Below, piece by piece: positions 183 to 57,936 of a stretch of DNA of 57,936 bases. The notes under the pieces are model-generated. The model was given only the letters and a program-made list of their open reading frames with translations. It was not told where the DNA came from and ran no database searches. The position numbers were made by a program, and so were the translations under genes. Each line of letters starts with the position of its first letter. The first letter of the stretch is position 1. Source of the stretch: a virus. The stretch is taken from IMG/VR virus record IMGVR_UViG_3300021197_001531, positions 1-57,936 of that record; one strand, written 5' to 3'.

Positions 183-959
183 ATGACCAGTCCTTTTGAG
201 TCTGCATGGGCACTACTCAAAAACGATGATGAGGATTACATGCACCACGCCTCTGATTACATTGAGAGAATGTTTGGTATTCCTAACCAAAGGGCCATGG
301 AATTAGCGCAAGAATTGATGCAACACCAGTTATCACGAGCAAATATCCCTCAATCAAAAATTGATTTGCATACCGGAGATGCTGGAATGACAAGTGATTT
401 TCTCAATCAAAAGTTTGCTAAGCCCTTGGCTGGTAGCCTTTACAACATGAATAGAAACATAAACGAAGTAGTGGATAATCATCTTGGCGACGAAAATCTT
501 AGCCAGCAAATCGGTCAACGAACCAGCAACGAGGCATTCTCACGGCGTGGCTTAAAGGGTAATCCCCGTGTCCCACAAATGGATGAAGAGGCCAGTTATG
601 CTAACATTTCAATTCCTCGTGAATCGCCTATCCATGGCTTAGAGCCATTTGGCGAGAACGAGCCAATGGGCGCAACCATGGGAATGCCAATGGCTGATGA
701 TGTTCTTGAGCCAATTCGTGAACGCCAACGCATGCGTGAGCAAGAGTCATTCAATCCATTTACCGCAAAACCTTCTCGTCCTCCTGCGCCCCCAATGCAA
801 GAGTCGGATGTGCCGATGAGTAACGAACCCATGTCCCGTGGCCCAATGCGCTCTCGCAAGCGAGGCGACCCTGCTCGCCAACCAAGATTCGTCCGACCGG
901 GTTTCCGTTCTACCGAAAGTATGCCCTTAACGGACAAATCCGCTGAAAGCAGATTGTAG
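183..959 (+). CDS. hypothetical motif-bearing protein
   Basis: The product is 258 residues from the ATG at 183; a GTG at 174 would add three residues but fits the TATA spacing less well. I do not recognise a family. The N-terminus carries SPFESAWALLK (189-221), a divergent copy of the P-M-D-x-A-W-x-L-L-K motif found in several other proteins here. The first 130 residues look helical. The C-terminal half is Met/Pro/Arg-rich and low in complexity, ending in a basic tail, as in the proteins at 11227 and 12501. A role inside the virion or as an assembly accessory is an inference from the shared motif. It is transcribed alone, and a terminator-like hairpin follows its stop. Confidence 0.75.
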   Translation: MTSPFESAWALLKNDDEDYMHHASDYIERMFGIPNQRAMELAQELMQHQLSRANIPQSKIDLHTGDAGMTSDFLNQKFAKPLAGSLYNMNRNINEVVDNHLGDENLSQQIGQRTSNEAFSRRGLKGNPRVPQMDEEASYANISIPRESPIHGLEPFGENEPMGATMGMPMADDVLEPIRERQRMREQESFNPFTAKPSRPPAPPMQESDVPMSNEPMSRGPMRSRKRGDPARQPRFVRPGFRSTESMPLTDKSAESRL

Positions 960-978
960 TAGCCGTTAAGTTTATTTT

Positions 979-1170: not shown

Positions 1171-2006
1171 ATATCACCGTGTACGAGGTCGGCCCTCGTG
1201 ACGGTCTTCAATCTATAGAACATTTTATTCAAACGCCGATAAAACAAAATCTGATTGCCGCTTTGTACAATGCTGGTTTAGAGCATGTGGAAGAGGTGAG
1301 TTTTGCTCACCCGAAACTTGTGCCGCAAATGGCTGACGCAGAAGAAGTGTATGACAGGGGTGCCGCTTTAATCATGAACAAGCGTGGGTATGACCGTGCA
1401 GTGGCGGCTGGAGTTGACAAGTTCAACATCGTTTTTAGTCCGTGTGAAACTTTCAACATCAACAACATGGGCAAGACTCGCAGTGAAATTGTGTTGATGT
1501 ACAAGACATTCATGAAAGAAATACCCAAAGACAAGGTGCGAGTGTACATCAGCATGGCATTTGGTTCACCCCATAGCGGCACACCTCGCCTCAACACTCT
1601 CATTTCGTGCATTCGTGATGCCAAGATGTTTGGTAATACTGTGGTGTTTGCTGACACTGTAGGTGTAGCGACTCGTCGGGACATGGAATATGTGGGTGAA
1701 TTGGCGAAAAACGAAGGTGTGCGACCAGCACTCCACCTGCATCACAATGGCAACGAAGGGCGAGCCATGGAATTAGTGCGTCACGCCATCTTCCATGGCA
1801 TTCACGAGATTGATTCCAGTATTGGTGGTCTTGGTGGGTGTCCGTTTGCTACCAACAGTGGGGCAAATTTGTCCACTGAGTCATTGGTTGTTAATTTACA
1901 CGCTTGGGGTTTTGAAACTGGTGTAAATGAAAATGTATTGAAAGAAGCATCACTCATAGCGAGCAAAATAAAATTCAATGATGAGGGCCGTAAAATAGTG
2001 GCATGA
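1167..2006 (+). CDS. HMG-CoA lyase-like DRE-TIM metallolyase (auxiliary metabolic gene)
   Basis: This 279-residue protein belongs to the hydroxymethylglutaryl-CoA lyase family, which cleaves HMG-CoA to acetyl-CoA and acetoacetate in a TIM barrel with a divalent metal. EVGPRDGLQ at residues 7-15 holds the metal-binding Asp12 and catalytic Arg11. HLH at 190-192 supplies metal ligands. GLGGCPFA (221-228) carries the signature active-site Cys225, and N234 lies in the last metal-ligand motif. The family's HCHDT sequence is HLHHN here, so substrate use may differ. Length is close to the bacterial family. The GTG start overlaps the upstream membrane-protein stop. The 3' end overlaps the convergent gene on the other strand by 32 bases. 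Archaea make HMG-CoA for isoprenoid lipids, so a viral lyase could redirect that pool; that is inference. Confidence 0.85.
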   Translation: MNITVYEVGPRDGLQSIEHFIQTPIKQNLIAALYNAGLEHVEEVSFAHPKLVPQMADAEEVYDRGAALIMNKRGYDRAVAAGVDKFNIVFSPCETFNINNMGKTRSEIVLMYKTFMKEIPKDKVRVYISMAFGSPHSGTPRLNTLISCIRDAKMFGNTVVFADTVGVATRRDMEYVGELAKNEGVRPALHLHHNGNEGRAMELVRHAIFHGIHEIDSSIGGLGGCPFATNSGANLSTESLVVNLHAWGFETGVNENVLKEASLIASKIKFNDEGRKIVA

Positions 2007-3621
2007 TTGGGCGTTGTTTTGTTGGTGTCAAATTACCCATGTGTTTCTCAGCCAGCAGTTTTACAACCTGCTCCATGTCGGGATGAATACCCTCAATGAG
2101 TGTGCCTTCGTTAGTGTCGGTCATTTTATGCGCCCGGTCAAGGGTGGTGAGGTCACCTCGCAGTGCCTCGGTGATTTGATGCGGCAACTGCAACTCGCCT
2201 TTGAGCATACGCCAAGCCATGTCCATTGGTGATGATTTGAGAATGCCTCGTGCAACCAACTGGTTGAATACCGCTTGTTCCATAATTGGTAATGTGCGGA
2301 TTCGTTGTGGTGAAATCTGTTTATTATTGTAAGTGTACATATTCGGGTAACCCATAAGGTTGTCAAACTTGCCTGCTATTTCCTTTCCTTCATCGGTATC
2401 AAGGAACTTATCTTTCACAATCGTTTCTTCGGCGGTGGCAAGTTCATCTTTCATTCTTACCGCATCCTCTTTAGCCTGCCTGTTAGCGGCCAATGTATCT
2501 GCACGCTTTCTTTTTGTTTCATCTCTCATGCTTTGTTCTGCTTGACTCTTTTTTTCTTCAACTTCCCTTTTCCTTTCGGCCTCTTCTTCCTCTTCCTTCT
2601 TTCGCCTTTGCTCAAGCATTTCGGCGTATCGCCTTTCTCTTTCTTCACGAGTGTTCTCGTTGTGTTGACGATTAGCGGCAAGTAAACTTTCTTTGGAATC
2701 AAGGTTAGGGCGCATAACATTCTTTGGACGAACCATTTGCTCGTAGTCAACATCATGGTCTTGCTCTAACACTGTGGTCAAGCCCGGTGAAGCCATTTCT
2801 TGGAGAAGTGGCTGATATTGCTGAGTTGTTTTACTTCCAACGCCACTTCTTTTACTCTCAAAGAGATTTTTTACAGCACCTCTCATTCGGTCGGAGCCAC
2901 CCTTTTCTTCGTTGAACTTTGGAAGAGCAGTAAAATCAATGTGTTGTTCAAGAGCGTTCATCAGTTGGTGGGATGGGATATTGTACATTCCGGGGAAACT
3001 TTTGGGGTCACTGTGCTCTTGGTCGTACATGTAATCGGGATTAAATCGTGTTGAGGTCCAATCATCAGCAGTGTCCCTGTATTCTGTTTTCCCCTGCATA
3101 TCTCTTATGTTTGATTTGCCTTGGGTATCAAATTTAGGAATGTCTTCAACGAAACCTGCTCGCACTTTACCGTGCTGGTTGGGTTGGAAAAGATTGGGAT
3201 TTTGCATATTTTCAATGCTCGTGTCAATGATTCGTTGGCGAGATTGAGCGTATTCGGGTGTTCGGAAAGGTGAAGTAAAATACATGTCCTTCAGCATTCG
3301 CCACGACATATCCATAGGCTCTCCCGTGGTGATTTGCGAGCCAGCCTTGGCTTTGTCGGCCATTTGCTGGCCACGCTGTTCCATGTTCTGTTGGCTTTGT
3401 TTTGTTTGCTCAGCAATTTTATTTCCAACATCTTGTGGGGCACCCGCTATGCGTTCAGCGGCGGCGTCCTTTATTTTGTCAGTAAAAGTCTGTTTTGCTG
3501 TTTCCTTTGCGACTTTTTTAGCCGCTTGTCCTGCTACAACATTCGTCACAACATTAGCGGCGGCAACAGCACCAGCGGCGGCAACAGGCGGTGCTTTGCG
3601 AATAGCGACACGCCTGCTCAT
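1975..3621 (-). CDS. large motif-bearing coiled-coil protein, probably virion-associated
   Basis: The product is 548 residues; family not recognised. The N-terminus MSRRVAIRKAPP matches the V-L-I-x-K-A start shared by five other proteins here. An Ala/Val-rich segment (about 12-35) may be a hydrophobic helix. Residues about 325-400 form a long E/K/R-rich coiled coil. Two copies of the recurrent motif occur: GEPMDMSWRMLK (nt 3289-3324) and SSPMDMAWRMLK (nt 2200-2235). It is the only large reverse-strand gene and shares a 51-base divergent promoter region with the gene at 3673. Its 3' end overlaps the lyase gene convergently, so the transcripts would be antisense there. A structural or internal head protein is an inference from the motifs. 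Confidence 0.8.
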   Translation of the reverse strand: MSRRVAIRKAPPVAAAGAVAAANVVTNVVAGQAAKKVAKETAKQTFTDKIKDAAAERIAGAPQDVGNKIAEQTKQSQQNMEQRGQQMADKAKAGSQITTGEPMDMSWRMLKDMYFTSPFRTPEYAQSRQRIIDTSIENMQNPNLFQPNQHGKVRAGFVEDIPKFDTQGKSNIRDMQGKTEYRDTADDWTSTRFNPDYMYDQEHSDPKSFPGMYNIPSHQLMNALEQHIDFTALPKFNEEKGGSDRMRGAVKNLFESKRSGVGSKTTQQYQPLLQEMASPGLTTVLEQDHDVDYEQMVRPKNVMRPNLDSKESLLAANRQHNENTREERERRYAEMLEQRRKKEEEEEAERKREVEEKKSQAEQSMRDETKRKRADTLAANRQAKEDAVRMKDELATAEETIVKDKFLDTDEGKEIAGKFDNLMGYPNMYTYNNKQISPQRIRTLPIMEQAVFNQLVARGILKSSPMDMAWRMLKGELQLPHQITEALRGDLTTLDRAHKMTDTNEGTLIEGIHPDMEQVVKLLAEKHMGNLTPTKQRPIMPLFYGPHH

Positions 3622-3672: not shown

Positions 3673-4950
3673 ATGGCGAGGGTGCTGATAAGCAAGGCTA
3701 CTCTTGCTGATTTCGGTGTACCTCGCCAAGAAGTGGCAGTTCGCCCACCTATGCCCACCGAACAACAAATTCGTGAAGCGGTGTTGGGGGATGAAAACTT
3801 GGGGTTAATGTCACCCGAACAGTACGGTATGCGAATGCCCCTTATTGAGCGTGAGCGAGATTCGTCTGTGGAAGAAAGACAAAGAGAAAAACACAATCCG
3901 GGTGAAACAGGAAGGAAATTTTTAGAGGGTATGAGGCTTGAAGGTGCGTTAGCAAGTGGTGTCGCTATGCGTGAGTTTCCTGCCATCGGGATGCACGATA
4001 ATCACGAAGTAATGCCATTTTTGCGTGATTACTATAGTCGGCAAACTACGATACCCGAACATGACTGGCAGTATCACACTGAAGGGCCGTATTATGATGA
4101 AGAAGGGAACATCTTGCCCGGACAGGTACCCCCTGTAGATGCTGTTAAGTTAATGGGAGAAGCCGACATCAAGCATGTGGGACAGGGGAGTGGATTTGGA
4201 TTAAAACCACTCCCTTTTTCACATGTAAACGAAAGGTGGGAAATAGACGATATAGAACCCGGAAAGCAATTTCCTGCTGAAAACATAGGTTTTGTCGGCC
4301 CAACTATGGAACAAGCCATAACACGAAATGCAGCCGCTAATGTTTCACGACAAACTCCAAGGGGGTATGTTGGAGTAAGAGGATTCGGTAGGCCAAGCGA
4401 TAAGGCGTTTGCAAGAAGAACATTTGAAGGTGGAGAAGGTGGTTTTACAGCACCCATACCACCGGAACGCTTAGTAGGTGCTATGCCTGCATCAAGAGCC
4501 AATTTAGGAAAAGATTCTTCAAGAGTATTACCTGTAATGAAGCCGACAATTGTTGAACCAAAAACCGATAAGGAAAAAATAATGGAAGCAGTGAGAGATG
4601 GTATCATATCCCCATTAGATGTGCCATTACTATTGGCCCGTAAAAAATATATGAGTCACGAATTTCCTTACGACGCAGAATGGTATGAAGGTGTTATACC
4701 AACATTTTCAAATAAAATGCGGCGGGAAAGCCAACCAGCGGTAAATGCCATTAAAAATGCTTTTAAAAACGCTATACCTAAGTCGTGGGAAGAAGGGCAT
4801 TTCGGGCTGGAGAATGCAATTTTAACCGACGCTGAAAAAGCGAATTACATCCGTCAACTGGAAGAGCAACAGGAAAAACTACCCTTTTCATATGTAGATG
4901 AAGATAACACGGTACTTTATCCAAAGAAAACAGGGGTGCGTTTCACATGA
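3673..4950 (+). CDS. hypothetical protein with shared N-terminal motif
   Basis: The product is 425 residues. The frame is open much further upstream (to 3334), but that part is antisense to the reverse gene, and the ATG at 3673 gives MARVLISKATL, the shared V-L-I-x-K-A start. No known domain recognised. It is rich in Pro, Gly and charged residues with few long helices. The C-terminal 120 residues are more helical (SQPAVNAIKNAFKNAIP region). ISPLDVPLLLARKK near residue 315 weakly resembles the recurrent motif. The stop overlaps the next start by four bases (ATGA), so translation is coupled to the gene at 4947. Together they probably form one unit driven from the divergent promoter. Confidence 0.75.
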   Translation: MARVLISKATLADFGVPRQEVAVRPPMPTEQQIREAVLGDENLGLMSPEQYGMRMPLIERERDSSVEERQREKHNPGETGRKFLEGMRLEGALASGVAMREFPAIGMHDNHEVMPFLRDYYSRQTTIPEHDWQYHTEGPYYDEEGNILPGQVPPVDAVKLMGEADIKHVGQGSGFGLKPLPFSHVNERWEIDDIEPGKQFPAENIGFVGPTMEQAITRNAAANVSRQTPRGYVGVRGFGRPSDKAFARRTFEGGEGGFTAPIPPERLVGAMPASRANLGKDSSRVLPVMKPTIVEPKTDKEKIMEAVRDGIISPLDVPLLLARKKYMSHEFPYDAEWYEGVIPTFSNKMRRESQPAVNAIKNAFKNAIPKSWEEGHFGLENAILTDAEKANYIRQLEEQQEKLPFSYVDEDNTVLYPKKTGVRFT

Positions 4951-6518
4951 AGCCCGTGCTGGTCAAGAAGGCTTTGCCTCGGCATTGGTCAAAGGATTTT
5001 GATACCACTGAGGATTTACGCAGTGTGTTAAGACAGGCTCGTTTGATGTCTCTTGAGGATGCAAAAAACATTGAAAACATACCGCTAAGACCCGAAATAA
5101 GAGATTGGGAATTAGAACAAACCGCTGAAGGAATGAAAAGTATTGTTCCGGGTATTCAAGGTGGAAAAATCACAGACCAAGGATATGTGGATGAAGGTGG
5201 GGCGTTTACTTATCCCCCTCAATTACAATCATTTCTACCCTTGATACACCCCGAAGCAAGAATGAGCGGCGTTACTATGCCCGACATACCCGGCTCAATG
5301 GGTAAACCGGGTGGAAGACCGAGTGTTTTAGTTGGTTCCTTTGAAAAGCCGGAGTTTCACGCCACTCAAAAAGAAGGGCGTGTACAAACAGAAGGGTTCA
5401 TGCCGGGTGGTTTTGACCCTTCTCAAGCGGTTCTTCTCACAGAACCCTCTCGTGCCTTCGCAAGACAAGAAGTGCCAATGGCTATACACAATCTTGTAGG
5501 AGGAAAAATGAAGGATTATGCTCCCGGCACCTTTGGTTATAATGAACCCGCAGGAAGGGCCATGGAATCATTCAACATTTTACCACATGGTGCAGAAAGT
5601 CCATTGTCGCAGTATTCGGGGTGGGGGAAACCCCGAACTGTTGATGATGAATTTCGCCTTAGCGAACCAATGGACATCGCTTTCCAACTGCTCAAAGCGT
5701 ATGATGTTGAAGAAGTCAAAAGAAAACTTATGGACAAGGGTTCTTATGAAGACTATGTTGACTATCAAATCACTGATGCACAACCCGGTATGGACAGGAC
5801 ATTACCCCGTCCTTACGGTTTAATGAGCCACCAAGCGTTGAATGCTTTACATAACGGGTGGTTTGAAGGGGATATTCGGGACATGCTTGATGACCCCAAT
5901 TTTTCCTTTGAAAGAGATAACGAGGGAAATGCGATTTGGAGTGCTCACAATTTAGGATGGGGAAACCCCGAACACGCCGACCCCGAACATATGGGTTTTA
6001 TGATTGAAAATCAATTAGAAGGAACCCCTGTGGACTTTGAAGGAATAGGTAGAGAGAGTAATTTAAGGACATTGGAAAATGTACCCTTTGAACTCAATGA
6101 GCCACAATCGTCATCCTTTTTGGGAATGAAAATGAACCCCACATCCACTACCAGTTTTTCCACTCATTCAGCACACGGTCCAACAAACACCTTAGAGGAA
6201 GTTGAGGGAATGAAAGGGCGAGGTTTTCAAGACATTTACACAGGCGAACCAATGAACATCGCTTTCCAACTGCTCAAAGAGCGTGTAAGCCCCGAAGCCA
6301 AGCGGCACAAGTTGGAGTACGACAAGAAGTACGAGTCCAGCCCGGAACGGGTGAAGTATCGGGAGGACTTGAACCGTGAACGCCGCCGCCGTGGTATCTA
6401 TGGTAGTCATAATCACCAAGATGTAAGTCACACTGAGGGCGGCAAATTAACCCTTGAAAGCGAGCATGAAAACAGGGCACGGCACTTCAAAGACAAGGGA
6501 ACCCTTCGGGAATTGTGA
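4947..6518 (+). CDS. motif-bearing protein with basic C-terminal domain
   Basis: The product is 523 residues starting MKPVLVKKALP, another shared N-terminal motif. Two copies of the recurrent motif, SEPMDIAFQLLK (nt 5661-5696) and GEPMNIAFQLLK (nt 6243-6278), are also near-identical in DNA. The last 75 residues form a distinct basic module containing ERRRRGIYG, then DVSHTEGGKL, then NRARHFKDKGTL. I have the impression of similar tails in other marine virus proteins but cannot confirm it. The D-x-S-H ... N-R-A-R pattern is loosely reminiscent of HNH nucleases, without the full set of residues. The rest is unrecognised. It starts within the stop of the preceding gene and ends the operon before the non-coding region at 6519. 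Confidence 0.75.
   Translation: MKPVLVKKALPRHWSKDFDTTEDLRSVLRQARLMSLEDAKNIENIPLRPEIRDWELEQTAEGMKSIVPGIQGGKITDQGYVDEGGAFTYPPQLQSFLPLIHPEARMSGVTMPDIPGSMGKPGGRPSVLVGSFEKPEFHATQKEGRVQTEGFMPGGFDPSQAVLLTEPSRAFARQEVPMAIHNLVGGKMKDYAPGTFGYNEPAGRAMESFNILPHGAESPLSQYSGWGKPRTVDDEFRLSEPMDIAFQLLKAYDVEEVKRKLMDKGSYEDYVDYQITDAQPGMDRTLPRPYGLMSHQALNALHNGWFEGDIRDMLDDPNFSFERDNEGNAIWSAHNLGWGNPEHADPEHMGFMIENQLEGTPVDFEGIGRESNLRTLENVPFELNEPQSSSFLGMKMNPTSTTSFSTHSAHGPTNTLEEVEGMKGRGFQDIYTGEPMNIAFQLLKERVSPEAKRHKLEYDKKYESSPERVKYREDLNRERRRRGIYGSHNHQDVSHTEGGKLTLESEHENRARHFKDKGTLREL
5662..5697 (+). repeat. 36-bp direct repeat, copy 1 (encodes PMDIAFQLLK)
   Basis: These 36 bases match 6244-6279 with a single difference (GGACATC against GAACATC). 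The match stops sharply at the ends of the encoded motif. Near-identity at third codon positions points to recent duplication or gene conversion of the motif itself. Confidence 0.8.
6244..6279 (+). repeat. 36-bp direct repeat, copy 2 (encodes PMNIAFQLLK)
   Basis: Second copy of the repeat at 5662-5697, in the same reading frame of the same gene, with one base changed (Asp to Asn in the motif). Confidence 0.8.
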
Positions 6519-7306: not shown

Positions 7307-7578
7307 GTGGTGATGATGTGGGTCGTATTTTCAAAACACCTACGGATGACTCTACTGAAGCCACGCTTCGTGCAATGCACACACAAAACACACTGGACAA
7401 TTATTACGAAAAGGGCGTTGGATGGCTACGCACTTTTCTTTTTGTTTTGGTTGCCATACTTGGTACCAGTTATTGGGAAATTTATACAGGTGAATCAGCA
7501 TGGGAAAACACAGTGGAATGGATGTGGCAAAAAGTTCAAGATGTCGCAGACTGGCTTTGGGGGCTTGTAAATGGTTGA
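7303..7578 (+). CDS. small single-pass membrane protein (GTPase operon)
   Basis: The product is 91 residues from a TTG at 7303 that overlaps the preceding stop. A GTG at 7318 (86 residues) is an equal alternative with GTGGTGA just upstream. One hydrophobic segment (LRTFLFVLVAILGTSYW, about 43-59) is followed by a Trp-rich amphipathic tail (W-x3-V-x-W-M-W-x4-V-x3-A-x-W-L-W). The 3' end overlaps the GTPase start by eight bases, so the two are translationally coupled. It is probably a partner or membrane tether of the GTPase. No family recognised. Confidence 0.65.
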   Translation: MSGDDVGRIFKTPTDDSTEATLRAMHTQNTLDNYYEKGVGWLRTFLFVLVAILGTSYWEIYTGESAWENTVEWMWQKVQDVADWLWGLVNG

Positions 7579-8287
7579 ACCTGCTGGTACGGCGATGGTC
7601 GGAGCGATGGTGTGGGGAAAAGCCATATTCAACGCATGGAGGCCACGCAAGGTCGGTATTTACGGTGCTGGACTAACAGGTAAAACCACACTTGACCGTT
7701 ATATGACAACACCGGGAGAAATGGAAGAAATTCCCGAAGAAGAACGGACAACACATTTCAAAATGTTAGGTCGTTACAACTTACCCAAACCAACCCGTAA
7801 GCGAGTGTCTTGGAAGGGTGAAAAACGAGTTGTATTTTCTGCTGATGTAGGCGGTCAAGAGCGATTTTGGAACTTGTGGATTGATGACATGGTGAATCGT
7901 AATGTGGAATGTGTTGTTTACATGTTTGATGACCGTGCTATCAAAGGTGGGGAAGAAGCACTTCAGCAAATTGCCGGATTCAAATATCTCGTTGATGCAG
8001 TAGTAAACAGGCAATATCGTTATCGCAACATTCGGAGCAGATGGCGGGGAAAAAAATACACCCCTAAACTCATTATGTTGGTCGCAAATAAAGCAGACCG
8101 CTTTTTTGATGATACAGCGGTTATGCTTTGGCAACAAGAGCGTATCGGTGAGCACAAAATTTTTGATGCGTTTCGTGATGATTTAGTTCGCTTACAAAAA
8201 GCAGGGGTGCCTACACGCCGCTCCTTTATGGCTACACGAATTGGTTGGAATGTTGATACAACCATGATTTCTCTTTTGACGACTTAG
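7571..8287 (+). CDS. Arf/SRβ-like small GTPase
   Basis: This 238-residue protein has the full set of small-GTPase motifs. The P-loop is GAGLTGKT (residues 32-39) and Thr60/61 lies in a switch I-like stretch. DVGGQE (92-97) is the switch II signature of the Arf/Arl/SR-beta branch, followed by a Trp pair as in Arf proteins. NKAD (173-176) sets guanine specificity, and an A-T-R stretch near 211 is a plausible G5. The short N-terminal extension (1-26) is partly hydrophobic and could touch the membrane. It lacks the Gly2 used for myristoylation in Arf. It sits between membrane-protein genes and an AbrB-like gene, all overlapping or nearly so. Prokaryotic Arf-like proteins often act as membrane-linked switches (MglA, for example). 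The role in a virus is unknown; changing the host membrane or egress is a hypothesis. Confidence 0.85.
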   Translation: MVEPAGTAMVGAMVWGKAIFNAWRPRKVGIYGAGLTGKTTLDRYMTTPGEMEEIPEEERTTHFKMLGRYNLPKPTRKRVSWKGEKRVVFSADVGGQERFWNLWIDDMVNRNVECVVYMFDDRAIKGGEEALQQIAGFKYLVDAVVNRQYRYRNIRSRWRGKKYTPKLIMLVANKADRFFDDTAVMLWQQERIGEHKIFDAFRDDLVRLQKAGVPTRRSFMATRIGWNVDTTMISLLTT

Positions 8288-8295
8288 GTGATAAA

Positions 8296-31827: not shown

Positions 31828-32127
31828 GTGGCTTTTGATGTGCGAAATATAGACTTGAGCGACATTACTCGTGCTGGTAAGCAGGACCGTAAGGCAGACT
31901 TCCAATACGGTAGCGATGTGGTTACGAATACAGAAGGCCCACTTGAGGGCATTACGCAATCGCAACGCAAGCGCAATCAAGAAATAGGTGATGTGCTTAA
32001 CATCGGAGCAGGTACACGCTGTATTCATTGCGGGTTTCTCCACTTTCTGTGGAGGGCCACTTGTGGGGCTTGCGAGAAACCAATGGAATACAATATGGGA
32101 CATCGTGACGAAAAGAAGAGGTTGTGA
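31828..32127 (+). CDS. small zinc-ribbon protein
   Basis: The product is 99 residues from GTG 31828, with GAGGTGG just upstream. The C-terminal part has C-I-H-C-G and C-G-A-C, a typical four-Cys ribbon (C-x2-C ... C-x2-C). The first 60 residues are polar and probably flexible. The frame overlaps the start region of the next gene. No further assignment possible. Confidence 0.6.
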   Translation: MAFDVRNIDLSDITRAGKQDRKADFQYGSDVVTNTEGPLEGITQSQRKRNQEIGDVLNIGAGTRCIHCGFLHFLWRATCGACEKPMEYNMGHRDEKKRL

Positions 32128-32129
32128 AT

Positions 32130-49800: not shown

Positions 49801-52800
49801 ATGTAAAGAGCCGCTATTTGGCAGGTATTGTACGCCAGCGTCCTGTACCCCTCGTTATGCGTATGCCGCATCAAACGGCACGCTATACGGACCACAAAAA
49901 CAACACGCAATACTTCACTACTTACCTCATTTACGGCCCCGGTCAAGCCTTCCCCTTCAACGAAACCAGCACTGGTACGCTGGGGGCAAAGGAGCCTCAC
50001 CCCGGTTATGTTGTTACGACAGGTAATACTTGGAGTAAGGTACCTCACAGTCAAAACTTACCCAATGAAATCACCAACAGCGACGGTGACTACGGCCCAC
50101 CCAGCACCACTTATCAATCCAACCGTCACCGATTCAATTACCATACAACGCTTAACTGGTCACCGGCCCAAGGTATTCCAAACATAGGAGCCGATACTTC
50201 TTCTTCTTTCGGATTGGGTCAGCGTCTTGAACATGGTTATCACTACGGTGAACACTTCGGTAACATCAACATCACCGTCAACAGCAACAACGAGTCAGCC
50301 TTTGGTAAAGCGCATCCATACCAACATTGCGCTATTGGTTACTACGGTATTGCGATGAGTGCCGACATGACTTTCCACATGGATGGTGGTTACCACCCCG
50401 GCGGCTCGTGGCTTGATAATCAAATGGCATTTAATCCACCCATGGAAAAGGGCGACTTCCAACTGGATAAAATTAGCGGAAATCTTGTTCACCCTACTGC
50501 ATTCCGGGTTTCCGGTGTTATGGCTGAGAAGGTGCTGGCAGGCGCACTGGCTGAGGTTGCTACAGACTTTGACCGTGAAATCATTGTAGTGGACGGCACA
50601 CGATGTCAAAACGGTGAAGAGATGGCGACTATCATAGGACAAGCCATTAACGAAAATCCCGGTAAAGGTACTCTCAAGGCTATGGGTGGCACCTTCATGC
50701 CCAGCATGGGTAACGCCCAACGGCAAGACCGTTACGGTTGGACAGAACTCACCTTCAGTTCATACAGTTACGGTGGTTCCTACACGGATTTGGGTACTAC
50801 ACCCACCAGTGTGGCATATGTGGAAGCCACAATCGGTAGTGGTGATAAGCAAGATGAGTTAGAGCAAATACCAGCATCGGGTTGGATTCGTACCGATGAC
50901 GGACGGCTAAGCGGTGGTGCTTTTGGTGCATATCATTCTCGTGAAGTGTATGACAACAGCGGTACATGGACCGTGCGATTTTGGTTAGCACCTAACAAAA
51001 TTAGTGGTCAAGGGGCAATGGAAGATACTCAAACTTGGAAAGACAAAACTACCTCCGCTACACTCACTGGGCCGCAATTAAGTTCAGCATCTAAGGTCTT
51101 TGTATGGAGCAAGTCGGGTGTTCACTACTACAACAACGAGAATGCCAGCACTCGTGACCACATGACCCGTGTTCACTTTAGTGGGCTGGTGGATGCTCTT
51201 GACCGCACTCGCCCCGTGGGTGCCGTAGGGTGGGCTGGTGAGCGATACTCGTACCTCAACTCCCTCAAGGTAGGCACGGAGGGCTATGGTGCAGGTTTGG
51301 GTGCATGGCACCCGATGTTAGGCTTCTCACCCTACGGCAAAGCATCCAGTGTGATGAGCACTTTCAGTCATTTACCTCACTTTAATCCATTCAAGCACGG
51401 ACCCGAAGCCAGTGGACCCATCAACGGGTATGGTACAACGAATACCATATTGACCACACCATACACTTGGCAGTACGATGATTACAAACCATCGGGTTAT
51501 ACTTTCCAAGAGTCCGATGGTTCCTCCTATGGAGTCAAACCCTTGCACATCACTGATGCTAACGAAGTACCCCGTGCCCTCCACAGCACGCAGGGGTTGT
51601 TCAGCAAAGCATCCCTTGTGATTTCGTATGAAGGTGAGTTGTCTCTTGTTGCTAAGCATGACCGTGACGGTATCACGGCAACAGGTGACTGGCTTGCGGT
51701 GGTCAACAAGACCGCTGGCGGTACTGCCGCCGCTGACGCTATCAAGTTCGCAGGTACCACTCAGTGGGACGAGCGTGTGCACGGTGTTGACCGATTTGTG
51801 GCCCCTGCTCACGGCGGGCCTAACATTGAAGCCCTCATGATGGACTTAACTCTACCAATAAGCAACATCATAGCAGGTGCTTATGATTTTCACACCGCCA
51901 TTGGTAGCGATGATAACAGCGTGTACAACGCTGAACCCTGCTTCGCAAAGACTGGTGATTTGTTCTTTGACCTTGACAAAAGCCCCGGTAGTTTCTTCTT
52001 GGAAAATGCAAACGCTGTTGAACGCAATCGTATTACTGATTATTTCACACTCGGTAATGCGGCTTTAGACCGCTATACTGAGGACGATGATTTTTGGTTG
52101 GGCAACACCAACGCATTCAAGATGAATCAACGCTCTCCAGCCAAAAATTTCTCCGTAGAACATGTCGTATGGAAGCGTATGGATGGTGGTAACCTCTCCC
52201 TCCCTGCGGTCAACGCCCGTGGTCTTGGTGCCGTACCTTTCGTGACACGGGTTGACAGCGGTACACCGTACACCATGGGTGAGAAACTGTACGGTATCAA
52301 CCGATTTTCGTTTGAAACGACGAACAGTGCCATGTTCCCCATCATTCAAGCGCAAGAATTGGCTCACCCGCAAATTGCCGCCAGTCACCCCGATGAGTTG
52401 CGAAATGTGTTGGCCATTCCCAACGAGGAAGCACAATTTGAGGAAATGCAGGTGGAAGATGACACCGGCCAAGTACATATCGTTGAGGGTGGTTCACCCT
52501 TTGGGACGATTATCCGCACTTTCAACCCCATTTCCGACCGTAGTGCTGAAGGTCTTGCACCTGCTACTGCTGGAAGCGGTGTGGAGCCTAATCTCAAAGT
52601 ACGCCTCCCCAACCCCGATAGCATACCCGGTAATCTGCTGGTGCGTGCAGGGTTTGACCGCTTGCAAGCCTATCAAAACGAAACGATGGGTACTGGCGGA
52701 ATGATGCGCCCGCTATCAAGCGACAGTACAAAACATTTATTCACTGATGAAACGAAAGGTCCACGCCGTGGTGGTACCTTCAGCGACCACAATTGGGAAC

Positions 52801-55800
52801 ACATCAGTCAGTCCAGTTTCCCCGACCCTACTTATTCGGGTTGGGAAACAGCAACGGGTAACGCCCCGTTGGAAACCTCATACGAACTGCACGACCGCAC
52901 CCTGTTCTTCCACATCACCAAGAATGGTAACACTCACAGCCACCGTTACCCAACTTACTACACTCATGCTAACGGTATCACCAATAACGATTTGACCGCT
53001 GTTTCGTTTAGCAGTGGCACGCTGACTGTGAACGCTACAGTGGACCAATCGTTGTTTAATGAAACAATTCGTGACGGGCGCAGATTCCTGCGACTGTATG
53101 ACCCAGTGACCGACCGTGGTGGTGTTGCATCGTGTACGGGCATCAGCGGTGCTACATTTACAGGTTGCGTAGGCGATGCTGACTTTGCTGAGTTGGTCAA
53201 GTCATCCATTACCTCGCTCAAGGTTGTACCGTCATACTACATTCCCGCCGGTAGCACTCGTTTCTTCGCCGCTCGTCGTCTGCGTGACCATGCTGAAGTG
53301 AGCGGTAACAGCCCCGACATGCTTCACACCCTTTACGGTACGAATTTCGTTGACACTGACACGCTTTGCCACACCGTGTATGCTCAACCTAAGATGAGTC
53401 CACTCGCCTTACCTCGCATGGGTCACCACTTCGTAAATCCAACCATGGCGATGTTACCCGGTCACTTGGCTCATCCCGCATACCAAGGTGTGTACGACAA
53501 ACACCGAGCAATCCGTTCAGCCACCGTTAAGGCTCACGAAACTTCTCTCATGGAAGAACAGGGACTTAATGACCTCAAGAGTGATATTTCAACTACCCTT
53601 AACGATAAGTTGTACGGCTACGACACCTTGCATACTTTCAGCAGTTTAACAGCCACACCAAGCGGCCCCAGTGATATTCACGGCGGTGCGTTTACACTGA
53701 TGTTTGAGTCCAAAATTCGTAGCGATGGTTACGGTGTACTGGCATCTAAAGGACAGGCTGGGGTCATCAATGCCGCTGGTGGGCACTCCATCGTATTGGA
53801 AGCCGCCGCATCGTACACCCTGCGCCATCACTTCCCCGACCCATCCGAAGTCGGTGCTTACCAAATTGTCATTCAACCCAATATGCACAAGTCGCAGTTT
53901 ATCGGTTTCCATCAAAACAGTACGACTGGGTTCCCCGATGGTTCGGTTAAGGAATTGACCAGTCAACAGGTAGCACTTGTTGTTGGTTTGCGTGAAGCCG
54001 ATAGCGCAACAGGGGCGGTGGCTTTGGTATTGGCGGAGGCTACAGTGGCCGATGTGCGTGGTTGTGAAGTCTTCATCAACGAACTCATCATTGACCAAGA
54101 CCCCGACCACGGAAGCCAATTCACGAACATTCCACCACTGATGTTGTACAACTCCTTGGGTGTACAGGGTACGGAAAGTCCAGCATTCGTTAAGCGGTCA
54201 TTGCCTTACCAACCACAAATGTTTGCTCGTGCTACACCCGGTATGACCACCAACATTCCATGGTGGAGTATTGTACACAAGGATGGACCCGACCACGCTG
54301 ATGCCACTGGCTTCCGTCATCTCAGCCACCACCGCCTTGACAACTACTACGAGTTCTTGCGAGCCAGTGCTGGTAGCATCGCCTGTCAAATCACGCTTGC
54401 GGGCTACCCAAGCCTGTACCCCGACCTGTACCACGAGGTGCTTGAGAACATCAGCCTCAACCCAGTGTGCACCGTGGTAAGCGTTACATCAACCACCATT
54501 ACGGTTGACGATGCTCGTGGCTTCCCACAATTGCCTTATTACGGTAACAAGTTGGAGTACACCGATGCAAACGGTGTACGACGCACACACACTTACACTG
54601 AGCGCAGTGGGTATGACGCCACGAACATGAATGAACCAAAGCAATTTACTATCGTTGCAAACAATGATTTCACGAGCAATCTAAACACCGGAACGAAACT
54701 ACGCCTTACCCGCCCATACGACTTCCAACCCGCTGGTGCTATTTTGACAGACTCCAAGACCAGCATGGTAACCCGTATCTTACCGCAGATGCTACAGGGT
54801 AGCCGTGACACGAACAGTTTGCACATGGCTGATGCTTTCCTGTGCCTGTGGCACCCCAATCTCGGTCGCCCTCATACTTACTATTCGGACTCCGCTTCTC
54901 GTACTTGGTTGAACCCAACCAGTGACCGTGCTGGTGACAAGAAGCCACTCAATAGTATGCCCGAACACTTTGAAACGGTACACTATCACGATGCGTCATA
55001 CTACGCCAGCCTTGGGCCATTTGCCTTCCATCGCAAGACACCCCGCCCCCCGTATGAGATAATAGACACTTATGGTGAGCCTGCAATAGTTACAGCGTTT
55101 AACGCAACTGCCAAGACAATCACAACGGAATTAAGAGGTTACGCCCTTGCAGTGGGTTCCAAAATTATTGTTGATGGAGTCGCTTATACTGTGGCGAGTG
55201 ACAGTGTTCCTACAGCGGTGATAACGGTTAGTGAGGCAATAAATGGGGAAATCCGCATTGGCTCAACTATTCTCATTGACGGTGATGGTACAATGGAAAC
55301 TGCTGATGTTTTGGACACCACATACGGGACAACTGGTGTTATCGCTAATCGCTTTGACCCACAGGGTGGACAGTGGGATTCAACTGACGACAGCACCAAG
55401 GTCAACCTCAACCACTACTGGCCTTGTGGAAGCCGCGGTGGGCCGCTGGTGAGTCGTCTTGACGGGTACGGTTATGTTTCAGCCGCATGGAACTTCCCAC
55501 GAGAATACACCTTTGATGGTCCTGTTTGGGTTGACGGTGATGATGATGGAACATACAACATTCAAAACGGCGTGAGCAAGACCTCTTACGATGGTATCAG
55601 CAACCCAACACGCACCCGACCTTTCGGTTACCGCATTGGCCTACGCCAACCCTACAACAAGCCTCAGTGGGCATTGTATGGTATGCGTTCTTTCCGTGAA
55701 GCCGCCATCACCACCCCAGCAGTTGACAAACTCAGCATCGGCTACCCCCATGGCCCATTGGTACAAGACGAAACCGAAACTTGGACCTACGCTGGTGGCG

Positions 55801-57608
55801 ACGGATTGAGCAACGGTACTTACCCCAACACACAAATCGGTATCATGGAACGGCAAACCAACTTCAGTGGTATGCTTGGGGTGGACAAGACTGAATGGCA
55901 AGTGCGCTACAGTGACGGTATGCGTGTCGCTCGTCCATTCGGTTGCCCTGTTCGCACGCTACGCAACAAATCCACCGTCCTTCGTGACTGGTGGGGTGAC
56001 GCTGAAGGTAAGGACATCGCCAATCTTGACGAGGCTATCAATTACTATCTTGTTGATTGGTGGGGCAACACCCGTGGCGAGGATGTTCGCCGCCACCCAG
56101 TTCGTGGTTTTGGTATTCGTCCAGCGTGGGATGCAGGTGACGCATACGAATACGACCGCACCAACAATAAATCACCCTTTGAACGCTTAGTCAATACTGA
56201 TGACCCGATTGTAAACCTAAAGGGTGTAATCAATTTCACGAGTAAAGATGTGAGTGTAGCGTCGGGTGTAACACTTCCACGCTTTGGTGGTCGCCTTAAC
56301 GATACCAACAACAACGACGCCACTGAACTGGTGGATGTGTACATGCCTACCAATGCTCACCGTGTAGGTGACGATGGACACGGGCGTGGTTTGCGTTATC
56401 CAACCGCTTTCAATGAAGATGTACTCACCGCACTTGACGAACCTTATCATGCCACGGGGCTGGTGCTTTCGCATCACACCGCTGAGCCGAACATGAACGA
56501 TGGTTACATCCGTGCACGCAACGATGTACTTCAACCCGATGAGGTACCTCGTGGTATCAGTGCACGCCTTGACATCGCTGAGGATGGTCTGCTTAAGCCC
56601 GAAGCAGTGGTGAGCGACCGTGTTGAAACGGTGAGCGGTGACTCGCCTCACAAGGATGCCGTAAGCCGCAGTGCCCCTCGTATCGGTCTTGACACCGAGA
56701 ATGTAGAGGGCGTTGATGACAATCTCATCGCCATCAACACCGAGGCTCACAGTTTGCACACCGACCGTGGTGTAGGCCAGCGTGTTATCGTGCAGGGCGG
56801 GCATGAAGGTGGCTCTCAAACACTACTCAATTATGACCTCAATGCTGTGGACTTCACCGGACAGCCACAGGGTGGCGTCATGCGCCTTTCACACACTTCT
56901 AATTTCAATCCACTGGGTGGTACATATCTCGCTGAAACCCGCAATTTCGTGCAACCAATTGACGATAGTGGTTGGGGTGGCATTGATGGTAGTAACAAGA
57001 CCGCCAACCCCTACGAAACCAGCATATTTGATGCTTCCAGCGACCAAACCAACTTCACGGACAAGCGCATCACCTACATGTTGCGCCCTGTCCGTTTGTT
57101 GGACAAGCAACACATTGAGATGTTCCGACCCAACAACAACTTGAATGCCCTATCACCTCAATTCGGGAGCAATTATTTCTCCACTACAGCAGGCGGTAAG
57201 TACGGTGCATATGCTTACGAGATTACAGGTGGTCGTGCAACCAGTGGTAACTACATCCGGTCCACCAATCCCGATGGTAACCCTCCTTACGCTCCATTGT
57301 ATGTCATGGACATCTCTTCCAACGACAGCACACCTGTCAGTACCGGACCAAACATCCTTGGTACCGCCAAGTCAACATTTGATTCGTCCAAGTTGGACAA
57401 CGAAGTTACCCGTGTTATCATCAGCGAGAATACCCTGCAACACTACCGTGCTGACGCATCACGCCGACGCACGCACCAAGAGGGTGAAAGCAAGGAGGAA
57501 CGCATGGATTATACCGTCCAGCCTCGCTTCTCTCAATCTCTACATCCAAAAGGACATAAAGGGGATGTAACCTACAATTCAAATGACCACAGTGGTGATG
57601 CTTCGTGA
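40866..57608 (+). CDS. 5580-residue giant tail protein, probable adhesin/hub
   Basis: The product starts at ATG 40866 (GAGGTGG at 40855-40861) and runs 16.7 kb without a stop. Residues about 25-240 look like a LamG/concanavalin-type jelly roll (FVIEAWVVPDCGGIIAHREG; VFLAVNGEVVAEQD; EAIHFSNEFDE). A similar segment seems to recur near 4270-4400. Several small beta modules (TTVLNITNGSKRF around 1500; CTVVSVTSTTITVDDARGF around 4535; about 4735-4825) resemble linker domains of phage tail tips. There are no membrane segments or signal peptide. Parts (nt 44371-45300, 47690-49460, 55050-55340) are clearly more AT-rich with AGA codons, suggesting inserted or replaced domains. Host binding at the tail tip is inferred from position and LamG. 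The stop overlaps the next start. Confidence 0.8.
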   Translation: MVAIGRSSHAFFFDGVSDSVIIPQGRFTKTGVKDADGNKLMTKTLQGSGDIVSINGKTIADFVIEAWVVPDCGGIIAHREGQFTLEMGTVDTPGPAVFTVQVESLQGPSYFRLATAYDASTRWDGIVYPQQEHGGIHDSYNRYDTSNYGDATNLNFNNRPLYHVVAGINQDRVFLAVNGEVVAEQDIPPETRLARSTEHVYLGGKGGEFRGAIEAIHFSNEFDENMIQPSMAVKSLTTSALFRFEEPIDVVQGTYDFNAYTVTDASTKTLTMSTTNAQALIARLTGKAYDSSTPTTTFTANPYSMGNYKVVDYYTNTGTPTTLAVPHTPYNLLINPGAINRNTQKPNQSPPERVRLESINGSTGVVTFSSIHIDFVNGTSGIRGALHSRTADVDNYFVVVGADLLIDNGTGKPYQPPHYGTQIFDKTGQMVLDESNTENHGLVYSNRMATTDTDTNNPFAVTWPAGLDTLFQIGHSGRHAFSHITGHEYMRRFPKPADLVVDQQADGSADIVQMAYDSNTRNIDEMFVMNSLVDFYSETLEAPIARIENSSSVATITHNGLPASKRELIAIGGSGFKYAAFMLKGPVPETGAIDENNRLHHLVPETESRVALLHVPALKTSHDLAPYVEIHYNAVDLTGASMGESAPMLMVEKTVPAGSFDLGSGTRVLDVITSDLANCTLYSPGGVIYLSNAISGYGSLMQESHTLIGDNTGGQESDTELDYSRTPELYTPVSDVNAEPASPPKAIARSHNSSTHESVYHRLAIESMSSSATDTIVDEGAGKRTRQPTTDKTGTGVFDLGPTTHSSRVFEMFNIIDNVLITDEAGLLAKIFVQPSVKSRVNQLSLVRSLGAGDTPNIASIMFLMSRCRVRGVSKQESPEGNMSTVVVTATGIADSFVNENVSVIGSGSPDSHVVKEIEPNAPVVTVTLGGPGQGGVNTKPTFDPSPLMRLPGSTRRNCVVQAKVVHTATVSALPFSMSITPINNGSPDIASWGTICFPKKGRVYLQDGASAEYNSKSGSGFYFDQTTTAIKDRKYLDAAGTAYANFHDWCNATGIINQASTGTHLTSVYISNDGDFDSDSLAQDGSTVNDRLFQSLDTVTHDYQLGTQFASTRAMVEIPVFPQQFFDHTELGIFPGPDNSMKLHVDATYTAHTWNPTPVGRRANDIEAADKTKFSAYSYTMNSQEHVGSAMITKFEVVGNFYYLYVSHPQLFPDASTTGTFGGIKDVRRVRRVFVNDEDWAFYVNDPSTDGYLKIPYNSNGGFHEGVSDTFAFNAIVGSRIYIVDSRNESLIPLSSDSDTPSSDYEGRSPFYHDMANVMTQGGNLDYGLRQYVSAVEFKAGPLANPHAPRTVSKRASSKILQVTQESAIGGGTQLELILEDASLFPDAPFTKDSSNAISFEQGDLLFISEIMLDTPIEGFYYGRVTNTAGTNSVIMVIPDGVSFTAGDFVGVNLRLKKYGRALSGLSDPANAILSERAITTFYPTTADERWEFPTAYSAGTTTVLNITNGSKRFAHANTVGVNIRKGDKLYKQTGTGTLNIKYVGEVSAVESNEVTGVYTQITLTANNAVGISANDRVRIGANSVITEDFDAILNRSWLYPYAQGGLRNGDTVWMNMTLNNPHAVEGLFAKSRGVFNEAAVWKGFNGGQGTLADRPRDSIPLENFLIGDSCLETAQNFAQHVNKTMEMNYEAMGLDASQAPTVAYIDPYLSTDGNARVLLFDVAHDREFIAFHDLHMQVQSSAATPTLGYTRDIAHSTGTIKLDKHLVSINGGAPHYFTTQLDVANGFPSENKYLRSTQQSKFIESAYAHNTPNMGGGAYTLTDPSSRGANPFVRGKGHGHFVHTGYFHEETSNTHTVGDSTLPRVQPAVASVYYANQAHKTVRIERAGDSLISTLRSHRLSKDPNTHSFKDSSTLFDTPDGTRVISAFLCLKGKRSNHLDLVNHEESRLQHLKHWSQMDFVRRMTLDLGEVGVKEGVTDIEAAARELVRIINQGGAPKGRTHARRPSQQYPGESERLDLTRIGVRQDIGDENKDPTSAHINADFAATGSTYDPSPFWYGDIAFDTHDRGSHMGYVRAHLGRVVEDINGNEGYSIVIHSTIPGASGRNFCVWLDNSKGQSSYQPQFLIGHGGRFRNFWAQPDEILGENMHPAPMPLNKDGRPFAPVTTLREFVPQEKPNEAFTSNHDVSSRGDKTTNPNGRNISAHLGGISHNSVNDESFEAQSPSTTLVKGLRTGKQATARINFGGLVETGVPGFSPIAGKYGLGRKGDLSFNKRYNETILTGGTSPVANGSYTNHILSTELLDEKIGDAPLYGFRFTDHRGIGYGIRLIYREMNSPFANELTTIPSTIDEEICVYFDDRDVAQGGFTIGQNMLGAGDGTGRLTVESGMTEALWRGNQWRGMYAPSIGVDSQIKWDSTDSTIEIRLEAPFDTATSDFDAINDILGYLGFPRENGVLQITDPIYDSDLTYIGSLGNTVSYESRTQNDATGTHIFYGVRGSSFTISHYLSTFGGAATEGTGAEQLPATSNNIIRGLISPRLNMTTLVTDELLAAVTAAAVNLENPNIQEGFSFNCREMYAPDGRTFGEWGVAADAIKIRAHNPQQGARSLSKMFTASVHKDLGIAAPHLEFGEYQSLIQSGSSWTVTDGSTAVNEPYSDDDIETHHKKIDCGYIPHTVLQITSKARGFHTNTPTPILVDSYNDPVPVSRWRNNLKGIRFTRKSGDHITPALDNTAVIYDSFNGSTGVFTLLNSIAAILIPAGFESDALSISGSNRDRLVSYGDKTVIYHGTLKKALGTSLQDSSASGLDKLLVDISESNEAWKGEYEGVSTITDDGLLAVQNQNVFTGIRLYGSVESEPITYFKGGQDSKDHSVPLYFGGGFSGVVLDVNDGSKNDYSSFYTHPYSTGPTGTAGIQNANEISTAYALVDCNALLAFFPGTPFLDQHRGSINPPAYNQDSLLSPDIDVGTLATLTALPGHVKSRYLAGIVRQRPVPLVMRMPHQTARYTDHKNNTQYFTTYLIYGPGQAFPFNETSTGTLGAKEPHPGYVVTTGNTWSKVPHSQNLPNEITNSDGDYGPPSTTYQSNRHRFNYHTTLNWSPAQGIPNIGADTSSSFGLGQRLEHGYHYGEHFGNINITVNSNNESAFGKAHPYQHCAIGYYGIAMSADMTFHMDGGYHPGGSWLDNQMAFNPPMEKGDFQLDKISGNLVHPTAFRVSGVMAEKVLAGALAEVATDFDREIIVVDGTRCQNGEEMATIIGQAINENPGKGTLKAMGGTFMPSMGNAQRQDRYGWTELTFSSYSYGGSYTDLGTTPTSVAYVEATIGSGDKQDELEQIPASGWIRTDDGRLSGGAFGAYHSREVYDNSGTWTVRFWLAPNKISGQGAMEDTQTWKDKTTSATLTGPQLSSASKVFVWSKSGVHYYNNENASTRDHMTRVHFSGLVDALDRTRPVGAVGWAGERYSYLNSLKVGTEGYGAGLGAWHPMLGFSPYGKASSVMSTFSHLPHFNPFKHGPEASGPINGYGTTNTILTTPYTWQYDDYKPSGYTFQESDGSSYGVKPLHITDANEVPRALHSTQGLFSKASLVISYEGELSLVAKHDRDGITATGDWLAVVNKTAGGTAAADAIKFAGTTQWDERVHGVDRFVAPAHGGPNIEALMMDLTLPISNIIAGAYDFHTAIGSDDNSVYNAEPCFAKTGDLFFDLDKSPGSFFLENANAVERNRITDYFTLGNAALDRYTEDDDFWLGNTNAFKMNQRSPAKNFSVEHVVWKRMDGGNLSLPAVNARGLGAVPFVTRVDSGTPYTMGEKLYGINRFSFETTNSAMFPIIQAQELAHPQIAASHPDELRNVLAIPNEEAQFEEMQVEDDTGQVHIVEGGSPFGTIIRTFNPISDRSAEGLAPATAGSGVEPNLKVRLPNPDSIPGNLLVRAGFDRLQAYQNETMGTGGMMRPLSSDSTKHLFTDETKGPRRGGTFSDHNWEHISQSSFPDPTYSGWETATGNAPLETSYELHDRTLFFHITKNGNTHSHRYPTYYTHANGITNNDLTAVSFSSGTLTVNATVDQSLFNETIRDGRRFLRLYDPVTDRGGVASCTGISGATFTGCVGDADFAELVKSSITSLKVVPSYYIPAGSTRFFAARRLRDHAEVSGNSPDMLHTLYGTNFVDTDTLCHTVYAQPKMSPLALPRMGHHFVNPTMAMLPGHLAHPAYQGVYDKHRAIRSATVKAHETSLMEEQGLNDLKSDISTTLNDKLYGYDTLHTFSSLTATPSGPSDIHGGAFTLMFESKIRSDGYGVLASKGQAGVINAAGGHSIVLEAAASYTLRHHFPDPSEVGAYQIVIQPNMHKSQFIGFHQNSTTGFPDGSVKELTSQQVALVVGLREADSATGAVALVLAEATVADVRGCEVFINELIIDQDPDHGSQFTNIPPLMLYNSLGVQGTESPAFVKRSLPYQPQMFARATPGMTTNIPWWSIVHKDGPDHADATGFRHLSHHRLDNYYEFLRASAGSIACQITLAGYPSLYPDLYHEVLENISLNPVCTVVSVTSTTITVDDARGFPQLPYYGNKLEYTDANGVRRTHTYTERSGYDATNMNEPKQFTIVANNDFTSNLNTGTKLRLTRPYDFQPAGAILTDSKTSMVTRILPQMLQGSRDTNSLHMADAFLCLWHPNLGRPHTYYSDSASRTWLNPTSDRAGDKKPLNSMPEHFETVHYHDASYYASLGPFAFHRKTPRPPYEIIDTYGEPAIVTAFNATAKTITTELRGYALAVGSKIIVDGVAYTVASDSVPTAVITVSEAINGEIRIGSTILIDGDGTMETADVLDTTYGTTGVIANRFDPQGGQWDSTDDSTKVNLNHYWPCGSRGGPLVSRLDGYGYVSAAWNFPREYTFDGPVWVDGDDDGTYNIQNGVSKTSYDGISNPTRTRPFGYRIGLRQPYNKPQWALYGMRSFREAAITTPAVDKLSIGYPHGPLVQDETETWTYAGGDGLSNGTYPNTQIGIMERQTNFSGMLGVDKTEWQVRYSDGMRVARPFGCPVRTLRNKSTVLRDWWGDAEGKDIANLDEAINYYLVDWWGNTRGEDVRRHPVRGFGIRPAWDAGDAYEYDRTNNKSPFERLVNTDDPIVNLKGVINFTSKDVSVASGVTLPRFGGRLNDTNNNDATELVDVYMPTNAHRVGDDGHGRGLRYPTAFNEDVLTALDEPYHATGLVLSHHTAEPNMNDGYIRARNDVLQPDEVPRGISARLDIAEDGLLKPEAVVSDRVETVSGDSPHKDAVSRSAPRIGLDTENVEGVDDNLIAINTEAHSLHTDRGVGQRVIVQGGHEGGSQTLLNYDLNAVDFTGQPQGGVMRLSHTSNFNPLGGTYLAETRNFVQPIDDSGWGGIDGSNKTANPYETSIFDASSDQTNFTDKRITYMLRPVRLLDKQHIEMFRPNNNLNALSPQFGSNYFSTTAGGKYGAYAYEITGGRATSGNYIRSTNPDGNPPYAPLYVMDISSNDSTPVSTGPNILGTAKSTFDSSKLDNEVTRVIISENTLQHYRADASRRRTHQEGESKEERMDYTVQPRFSQSLHPKGHKGDVTYNSNDHSGDAS

Positions 57609-57936
57609 TGGATTATGATTTTTGTGATTGTTGTTCTCCCGCTGAATTGGCCTTTGCGGTGATGAAAGCCAAGAAGGAAAAACCGTTTCATGGTTACAAC
57701 CCAAACAAGCACAGCAAAAAGGGTGGACTGAACGCTAAGGGTCGTGCCGCCGCCAAGCGCAAGAGTGGCGCAAACCTCAAACCTCCTGTGACAACCAAGC
57801 CAAGCAAACTCAAGCCCGGCTCAAAGAAAGCAAAGCGTCGTAAGTCGTTTTGCGCTCGTATGAGCGGTGTCAAAGGCCCGACCAGCAAAGGTGGTAAATT
57901 GACACCAAAGGGAGCATCCTTGAAGCGATGGAACTG
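57608..57936 (+). CDS. small basic DUF6321-like protein (cut by window end)
   Basis: At least 109 residues; no stop before the window ends. The front has SPAELAFAVMK (nt 57635-57667), a copy of the recurrent motif. After it comes GGLNAKGRAAAKRKSGANLK, then PPVT, and later KSFCARMSGVKGP, the pattern of a small viral domain that I recall as DUF6321. It is strongly basic, so it probably binds nucleic acid. The start overlaps the giant gene's stop (ATGA-type), so it is part of the same transcript. Confidence 0.75.
   Translation, partial: MDYDFCDCCSPAELAFAVMKAKKEKPFHGYNPNKHSKKGGLNAKGRAAAKRKSGANLKPPVTTKPSKLKPGSKKAKRRKSFCARMSGVKGPTSKGGKLTPKGASLKRWN

Follow-up and report, generated by a model that had tools for sequence, protein, structure and literature searches.

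Short, often helical peptides load diverse enzymes into protein shells in encapsulins (cargo-loading peptides) and microcompartments (encapsulation peptides), and the encapsulin shell has the same HK97 fold as phage capsids. In phage T4 a peptide of ∼10 residues, the capsid-targeting sequence (CTS), directs several internal proteins, and also foreign proteins fused to it, into the prohead; it is associated with cutting by the prohead protease (PMC9958956, citing Mullaney and Black 1996). PMC9024508 and PMC12810830 deal with the Dar proteins of phage P1 (DarA, Hdf, DarB and others), which are head-packaged, co-injected takeover proteins; DarA and the major capsid protein (MCP) are cut by one protease, and the DarB signal can send a foreign protein to the capsid. 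In viruses of the SPN3US/phiKZ type many head proteins are thought to be injected, and several are processed by the prohead protease at AXE (PMC10052503).

We analysed a stretch of viral DNA of 57,936 nucleotides (IMG/VR record IMGVR_UViG_3300021197_001531, positions 1-57,936; hereafter the window), in which a short peptide with a PMDxAW half and a closing LLK recurs. This peptide (hereafter the tag) resembles the T4 CTS in that one virus carries it on several proteins that have no other relationship. Unlike the CTS, which occupies the N-terminus and whose conservation extends to a couple of internal proteins, it stands at the start, middle or end of its carriers, as a first-pass annotation of the window had claimed: 253 of the 517 tags collected across relatives are N-terminal, 229 internal and 35 C-terminal. 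Furthermore, it can occur several times per protein, has another sequence, ending in K, and belongs to another viral lineage. In function the tag would be related to the T4 CTS and to P1 DarB targeting. As it is not bound to the N-terminus and its own prohead targeting is putative, it is not a member of either. For the Dar proteins, no short peptide repeated in all of them is described in the parts of the sources cited above, and their sequences there are unrelated to the tag. The SPN3US/phiKZ system differs in that cuts fall after E and remove mostly N-terminal propeptides, most head proteins are uncut and no shared docking helix is described. Encapsulin and microcompartment peptides are cellular, mostly terminal, of unrelated sequence and work without a maturation protease. 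A literature search with the tag peptide strings returned no match, and a position-independent packaging tag would be previously undescribed.

All nine copies listed by the first-pass annotation lie where it had placed them, inside real ORFs (sequence and ORF check). Using a position matrix built from relatives, seven of them scored ≥ 6 bits, a level at which shuffled window proteins gave ∼0.14 matches per shuffle. The recurrent peptide is real and eight of the nine copies stand, on coordinates, ORFs and orthologues. The ninth, LSPMDAAAQRLM at 14334-14366 (+ strand) in ORF 12498-14462, is a chance resemblance, as relatives read LSPQEQRYQQMM and similar and do not retain a tag. ORF 174-959 (+) carries an N-terminal tag, M-TSPFESAWALLK, at 186-221, and in its orthologues the tag is found at shifted places, internally in L108 (SSPFDLAWTILK) and N-terminally in L119 (MVRPFDAAWSIIK). 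Two tags are present in ORF 1975-3621 (−), GEPMDMSWRMLK at 3289-3324 (33.6 bits; retained in six distinct orthologous copies) and SSPMDMAWRMLK at 2200-2235 (37.8 bits), and two more in ORF 4947-6518 (+), SEPMDIAFQLLK at 5661-5696 (30.7 bits) and GEPMNIAFQLLK at 6243-6278 (22.6 bits), the latter immediately 5′ of an 'xSPEAxRHKxEYDxxYES' cargo unit. In ORF 11227-12501 (+) the tag SEPMEDAWSTLLK (11617-11655) has a W-to-LLK spacing one residue longer; in a nine-member alignment of this family the tag residues E, P, M, A, W and L form invariant columns with a variable region around them. The two remaining copies are degenerate. AMRDAWSVLK (32649-32678, +) in ORF 32124-33074 is followed by a zinc-ribbon-like stretch, and two of five orthologues have SFDDAWSILK near the C-terminus, the other three having no tag. 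SPAELAFAVMK (57635-57667, +) precedes a DUF6321 domain in an ORF that starts at 57605 and is truncated by the window end; orthologues of 57605-57934 read TPMENAFALMK, SPMDNAFALMK or MNPMDEAWAVLK at the N-terminus, and by its sequence this copy is a drifted tag. Taken over all carriers, the comparison with homologues that the first-pass annotation had called for found the tag retained for ORFs 1975-3621 (−), 4947-6518, 11227-12501 and 57605-57934, shifted in 174-959, kept in some orthologues of 32124-33074, and not retained for 12498-14462.

A strict PMDxAWxx[L]K DNA pattern was run against IMG/VR and matched at least 119 stretches, nearly all in protein-like frames, compared with one stretch, in a meaningless short frame, for a control pattern with reversed codon order. 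Among 84,980 cellular genomes scanned, five strict-pattern matches were found, all in meaningless short frames; there was no credible strict-form tag in this set, and we rejected the idea that the tag mimics a strict-form cellular motif. The number of tags per record ranged from 1 to 20 in 17 clade records, against 0.0-0.2 in shuffles. With a matrix built from 279 distinct tags, the collection came to 517 tags on 410 distinct proteins. As many as eight tags occur in one protein, a 1,205-residue chain, and nine tagged genes with 11 tags lie within 15 kb in L275. The tag is confined to one clade of tailed viruses.

The window holds a halovirus-like MCP, terminase, portal and S78 protease. Terminase identity to the window is 51-93 % in tagged records with late genes and 44 % in two deeper records, whilst MCP identity is 74-98 % in most tagged relatives and 61 % in the deeper record G086; the S78 protease is present in the tagged records that hold late genes. 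Four records without terminase, MCP or protease (G003, G018, G029 and G033) were considered as other virus types, which was not supported: they are fragments with homologous giant tail-type proteins. By MCP, the nearest named relatives are haloarchaeal Druskaviridae such as HVTV-1 (36 %), which we discarded as a tag carrier, as a scan of its 41-kb late region found zero tags. Two HVTV-1 proteins encoded by neighbouring genes beside the head genes, gp115 and gp116 (L239, 12473-16934), share a VY[VI]xSPxEAPE...G..GG motif, which is possibly the halovirus counterpart of the tag. The relative G022 includes a replication half, absent from the window, with PolB, an SNF2 helicase and a TCP-1 chaperonin. 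Magroviruses of Poseidoniales have a halovirus-like capsid protein, DNA polymerase B and a prohead serine protease (PMC10160649; related family PMC13108676). By analogy, the clade probably consists of magroviruses, and the genes shared with the published ones make Poseidoniales archaea the probable host.

Several other genes of the window have features of their own. ORF 22319-28006 (1,895 residues), between portal and protease, contains an ATP-dependent DNA ligase-like stretch (residues 1439-1566, E = 9e-5), and ORF 1167-2006 encodes an HMGL-like enzyme (HMG-CoA lyase/homocitrate synthase type) that many relatives retain, though at varying places. ORF 7571-8287 encodes a conserved protein in which a GTPase-like P-loop (GxxxxGKT) was recognized by eye and for which there was no Pfam match; with 70-73 % in two near-complete relatives, it ranks with the most conserved of the late proteins. 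A single protein of 5,580 residues (ORF 40866-57608) takes up 29 % of the record; it appears LamG-like by eye at its start, and a Pfam search with its first 1,711 residues returned no match.

The tag comes in two flavours, N-terminal (M-x-P-[MFIL]-[DE]-x-A-W-x-[LIV]-L-K) and internal ([GS]-E-P-[MI]-[DN]-x-A-[WFMY]-[RQS]-L-L-K). S, T, N or E ahead of P-x-D makes a classical N-cap for a helix. The amphipathic helix supposed in the first-pass annotation is plausible rather than proved: the hydrophobic moment exceeded the shuffled mean in all four tag forms tested, but only two of them reached about p = 0.05. In a structure model of a cargo the tag forms a helix of its own, modelled with low confidence and standing apart from the folded domain, and the model of ORF 11227 is poor (pLDDT 53), with just a weak helix at 137-144. 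Within one genome, tags are 55 % alike, compared with 7-9 % for their flanks, and different codons are used at 53 % of shared tag residues, indicating that selection acts on the peptide. N-terminal tags are equally similar between and within genomes, and internal tags differ slightly (p = 0.006); the likeness of N-terminal tags between genomes suggests a conserved common receptor. Of 504 tags scored for the closing K, 435 have it at W+4, 40 at W+5 with an intact LLK block and three further away, whilst 26 have no closing hydrophobic pair plus K. The residues after the K are unrestricted (M, R, A, E, H and others). Another recurrent N-terminal pattern, M-x(1-4)-[VI]-L-[VI]-[KR], was seen mostly in late proteins (15 versus 0.6 in shuffles, 17 records), including window ORFs 4947, 14459 and 32124 and relatives near the terminase; like the tag, it has hydrophobic residues and K/R at its end, and it may be a further processing site.

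With respect to what the tag is attached to, nine clusters contain the same cargo both as a stand-alone N-tagged protein and as a between-tag segment of a longer chain. For example, the 'SPEAxRHKxEYDxxYES' unit of ORF 4947-6518 is elsewhere a stand-alone N-tagged protein. Some relatives of ORF 11227 have extra tag-bounded segments inserted, one of them zinc-ribbon-like, and multi-tag chains have one tag every 48-446 residues. By these sequence comparisons, the segment behind a tag behaves as a unit. Few of 102 representative carriers match known families. Those recognized include an HD alarmone hydrolase, whose best solved match is a (p)ppApp hydrolase (E = 4.8e-12), as well as a DnaJ-type zinc finger, DUF5872 and DUF6321. 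For a large 'YHGT' family, the structure model matches the tRNA 2′-phosphotransferase Tpt1/KptA (E = 3.9e-5, TM 0.50), and these proteins are thus predicted to have an ADP-ribosyltransferase-type fold with Tpt1/KptA as nearest relative. T4 likewise injects an ADP-ribosyltransferase, Alt, from its head. For one cargo segment there is only a hint of a SAM-lyase-like identity (Pfam E = 0.037), which is unproven, and a sequence search found no solved relative of it; a search of an anti-defence database with the cargos gave no matches. The recognizable cargos, namely the alarmone hydrolase and the ADP-ribosyltransferase-fold protein, look like takeover enzymes by sequence, an impression formed on a few, as most match no known family.

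In order to locate the tagged genes, we used simple gene calls on 13 large records, assumed circular gene order and excluded coiled-coil matches such as 'MDSDLQVLK' in ORF 21372 relatives as false positives. Within 20 kb upstream of the terminase, whose large subunit is encoded at 15555-17045 (+; PHROG terminase) in the window with the tagged cluster upstream of it, we found 67 of 82 tagged genes, whereas only one of 434 genes was tagged 50-95 kb downstream of it (near versus far, Fisher odds ratio 15, p = 2e-14), in the half that in G022 contains PolB, the SNF2 helicase and the chaperonin. In the tail region, 22-42 kb downstream of the terminase, one of 88 genes was tagged. TerL, portal, MCP and tail core genes carry no tag in the records examined, and in G001, G016, G024 and G026 tagged genes lie directly beside the giant LamG-type gene. 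Tagged genes are located in the late region, and we infer their late expression from gene order and the literature.

The window encodes an S78-type prohead protease with a scaffold-like C-terminal part (28046-29422, +; PF04586, 1.2e-10; PHROG head maturation protease) and an MCP of SU10/HVTV-1 type (29448-30548, +; PF17236, 1.6e-12). Candidate cutting sites were found in both. Shortly after the MCP N-terminus, an LLK precedes ADAP (29541-29549, +), and [LI]LK[AS]D[AS]P is present in 23 of 23 aligned MCPs. The protease domain has an LLK ahead of it (28082-28090, +), with the hydrophobic pair and K conserved in 23 aligned sequences, and an ILK just behind it (28541-28549, +), which reads [RNT]ILK[EQ]D in aligned relatives. 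The conserved sites are thus found where those of S78 substrates are expected, at the MCP N-terminus and at both ends of the protease domain. A further LLK (21603-21611, +) is located in the linker of ORF 21372-21713, ahead of a W-containing C-terminal helix, and in this otherwise variable linker a K follows hydrophobic residues in 13 of 13 relatives. By their sequence and location these [ILV][LI]K sites look like maturation sites. What they have in common with the tag is the closing [ILV][LI]K and not PMDxAW and, together with the LLK block that stays intact at W+5, this suggests a bipartite tag, with one part that docks as a helix and another at which it is cut. After the K, however, most of the MCP, protease and ORF 21372 candidate sites have S, A, G or N, unlike the tags. 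As a separate observation, the protease/scaffold ORF 28046-29422 and ORF 21372-21713 have the same type of helix at their ends, M[GSN]W[DE][DE][VI]H.[LM]A and near variants, which in aligned relatives follows the candidate K site; both helices probably form the ends of scaffolds and bind to one and the same surface of the capsid.

The reading that we consider probable is that the peptide is a position-independent capsid-loading tag, by which cargo enters the virus head and from there the next cell; packaging, docking partner, cleavage, injection and host are points that we infer. The PMDxAW half would fold as a short amphipathic helix N-capped by S/T/N/E-P-x-D and would dock on a conserved part of the inside of the prohead, for which the capsid protein or a scaffold is the likeliest choice. 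The high conservation of the MCP among the late proteins makes it the leading candidate for the docking partner. A late protein with a tag at its start, middle or end would then be packaged and injected together with the DNA. As the LLK at the end of the tag is similar to the candidate site of the S78 prohead protease that the virus itself encodes, tags that open a protein or separate two units would be cut at head maturation, freeing the cargo. The loading half of this proposal is the probable one, and we put the cutting half at slightly less than an even chance, given that the residues after K differ from those of the candidate sites, C-terminal tags release nothing and a minority of tags lack the K; indeed, for the 35 C-terminal tags there is no gain from a cut after K. 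More tentatively still, the tag could be a universal, position-independent cargo address made of a shell-docking helix and a built-in protease site, by which 12 residues turn a protein into injectable cargo and cargos strung as a polyprotein are loaded whole and cut inside the head.

A docking tag on unrelated carriers, as the first-pass annotation had put it, is strongly supported by free placement, varied codons, restriction to one clade and late-region carriers. Of the functions it had offered, virion targeting with a candidate prohead-protease site is favoured and a host-factor site is less likely. Binding to one host archaeal protein, e.g. the chaperonin, polymerase or proteasome, would agree with a short helix that has W/F/M on one face and is freely placed, as is typical of host-binding linear motifs, and with takeover-type enzymes among the cargos. 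Nevertheless, the replication-half genes, which would be the obvious users, are almost never tagged, a tag that hardly varies among viruses whose MCP identity falls to 61 % would require an invariant host surface, and the scan of 84,980 cellular genomes speaks against the tag being copied from a widespread host motif of the strict form, such that we regard this explanation as rather unlikely. The [ILV][LI]K sites conserved in three proteins (MCP, protease and ORF 21372), the multi-tag chains and the LLK block that stays intact despite changed W spacing would also be accounted for if the peptide were a prohead-protease cleavage site only, without a separate docking role. However, the MCP and protease candidate sites do without PMDxAW, and that half is hence needless for the protease; moreover, C-terminal tags leave few residues to remove and N-terminal tags at residue 1-4 would remove just themselves. 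Cleavage by itself is an unlikely function on these grounds.

A virion tag for the tail, baseplate or giant LamG-type protein instead of the head interior is suggested by the tagged genes that adjoin the LamG-type gene in four records, but the densest tagged cluster adjoins the terminase and the tail region is nearly devoid of tagged genes, making this quite improbable. Lastly, the tag might be a DNA module at recombination seams that promotes cassette swaps and has no protein function. Cargo units do change context around tags, and codons within a genome are somewhat more alike than random (53 % different, 66 % expected); over half of the shared positions nonetheless use different codons, tags are far more alike than their flanks, and both reading frame and residues are kept, which would be needless for a DNA-level seam. 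We consider this explanation very improbable.

If the capsid-loading reading is correct, the tag would expose from sequence the injected arsenal of abundant uncultured ocean viruses, comprising 410 proteins, most of them without a known family. It would also serve as a compact genetic label with which proteins could be brought into the shells of archaeal viruses, and the combination of tag and cassette would constitute an evolutionary route for recruiting any protein as cargo.
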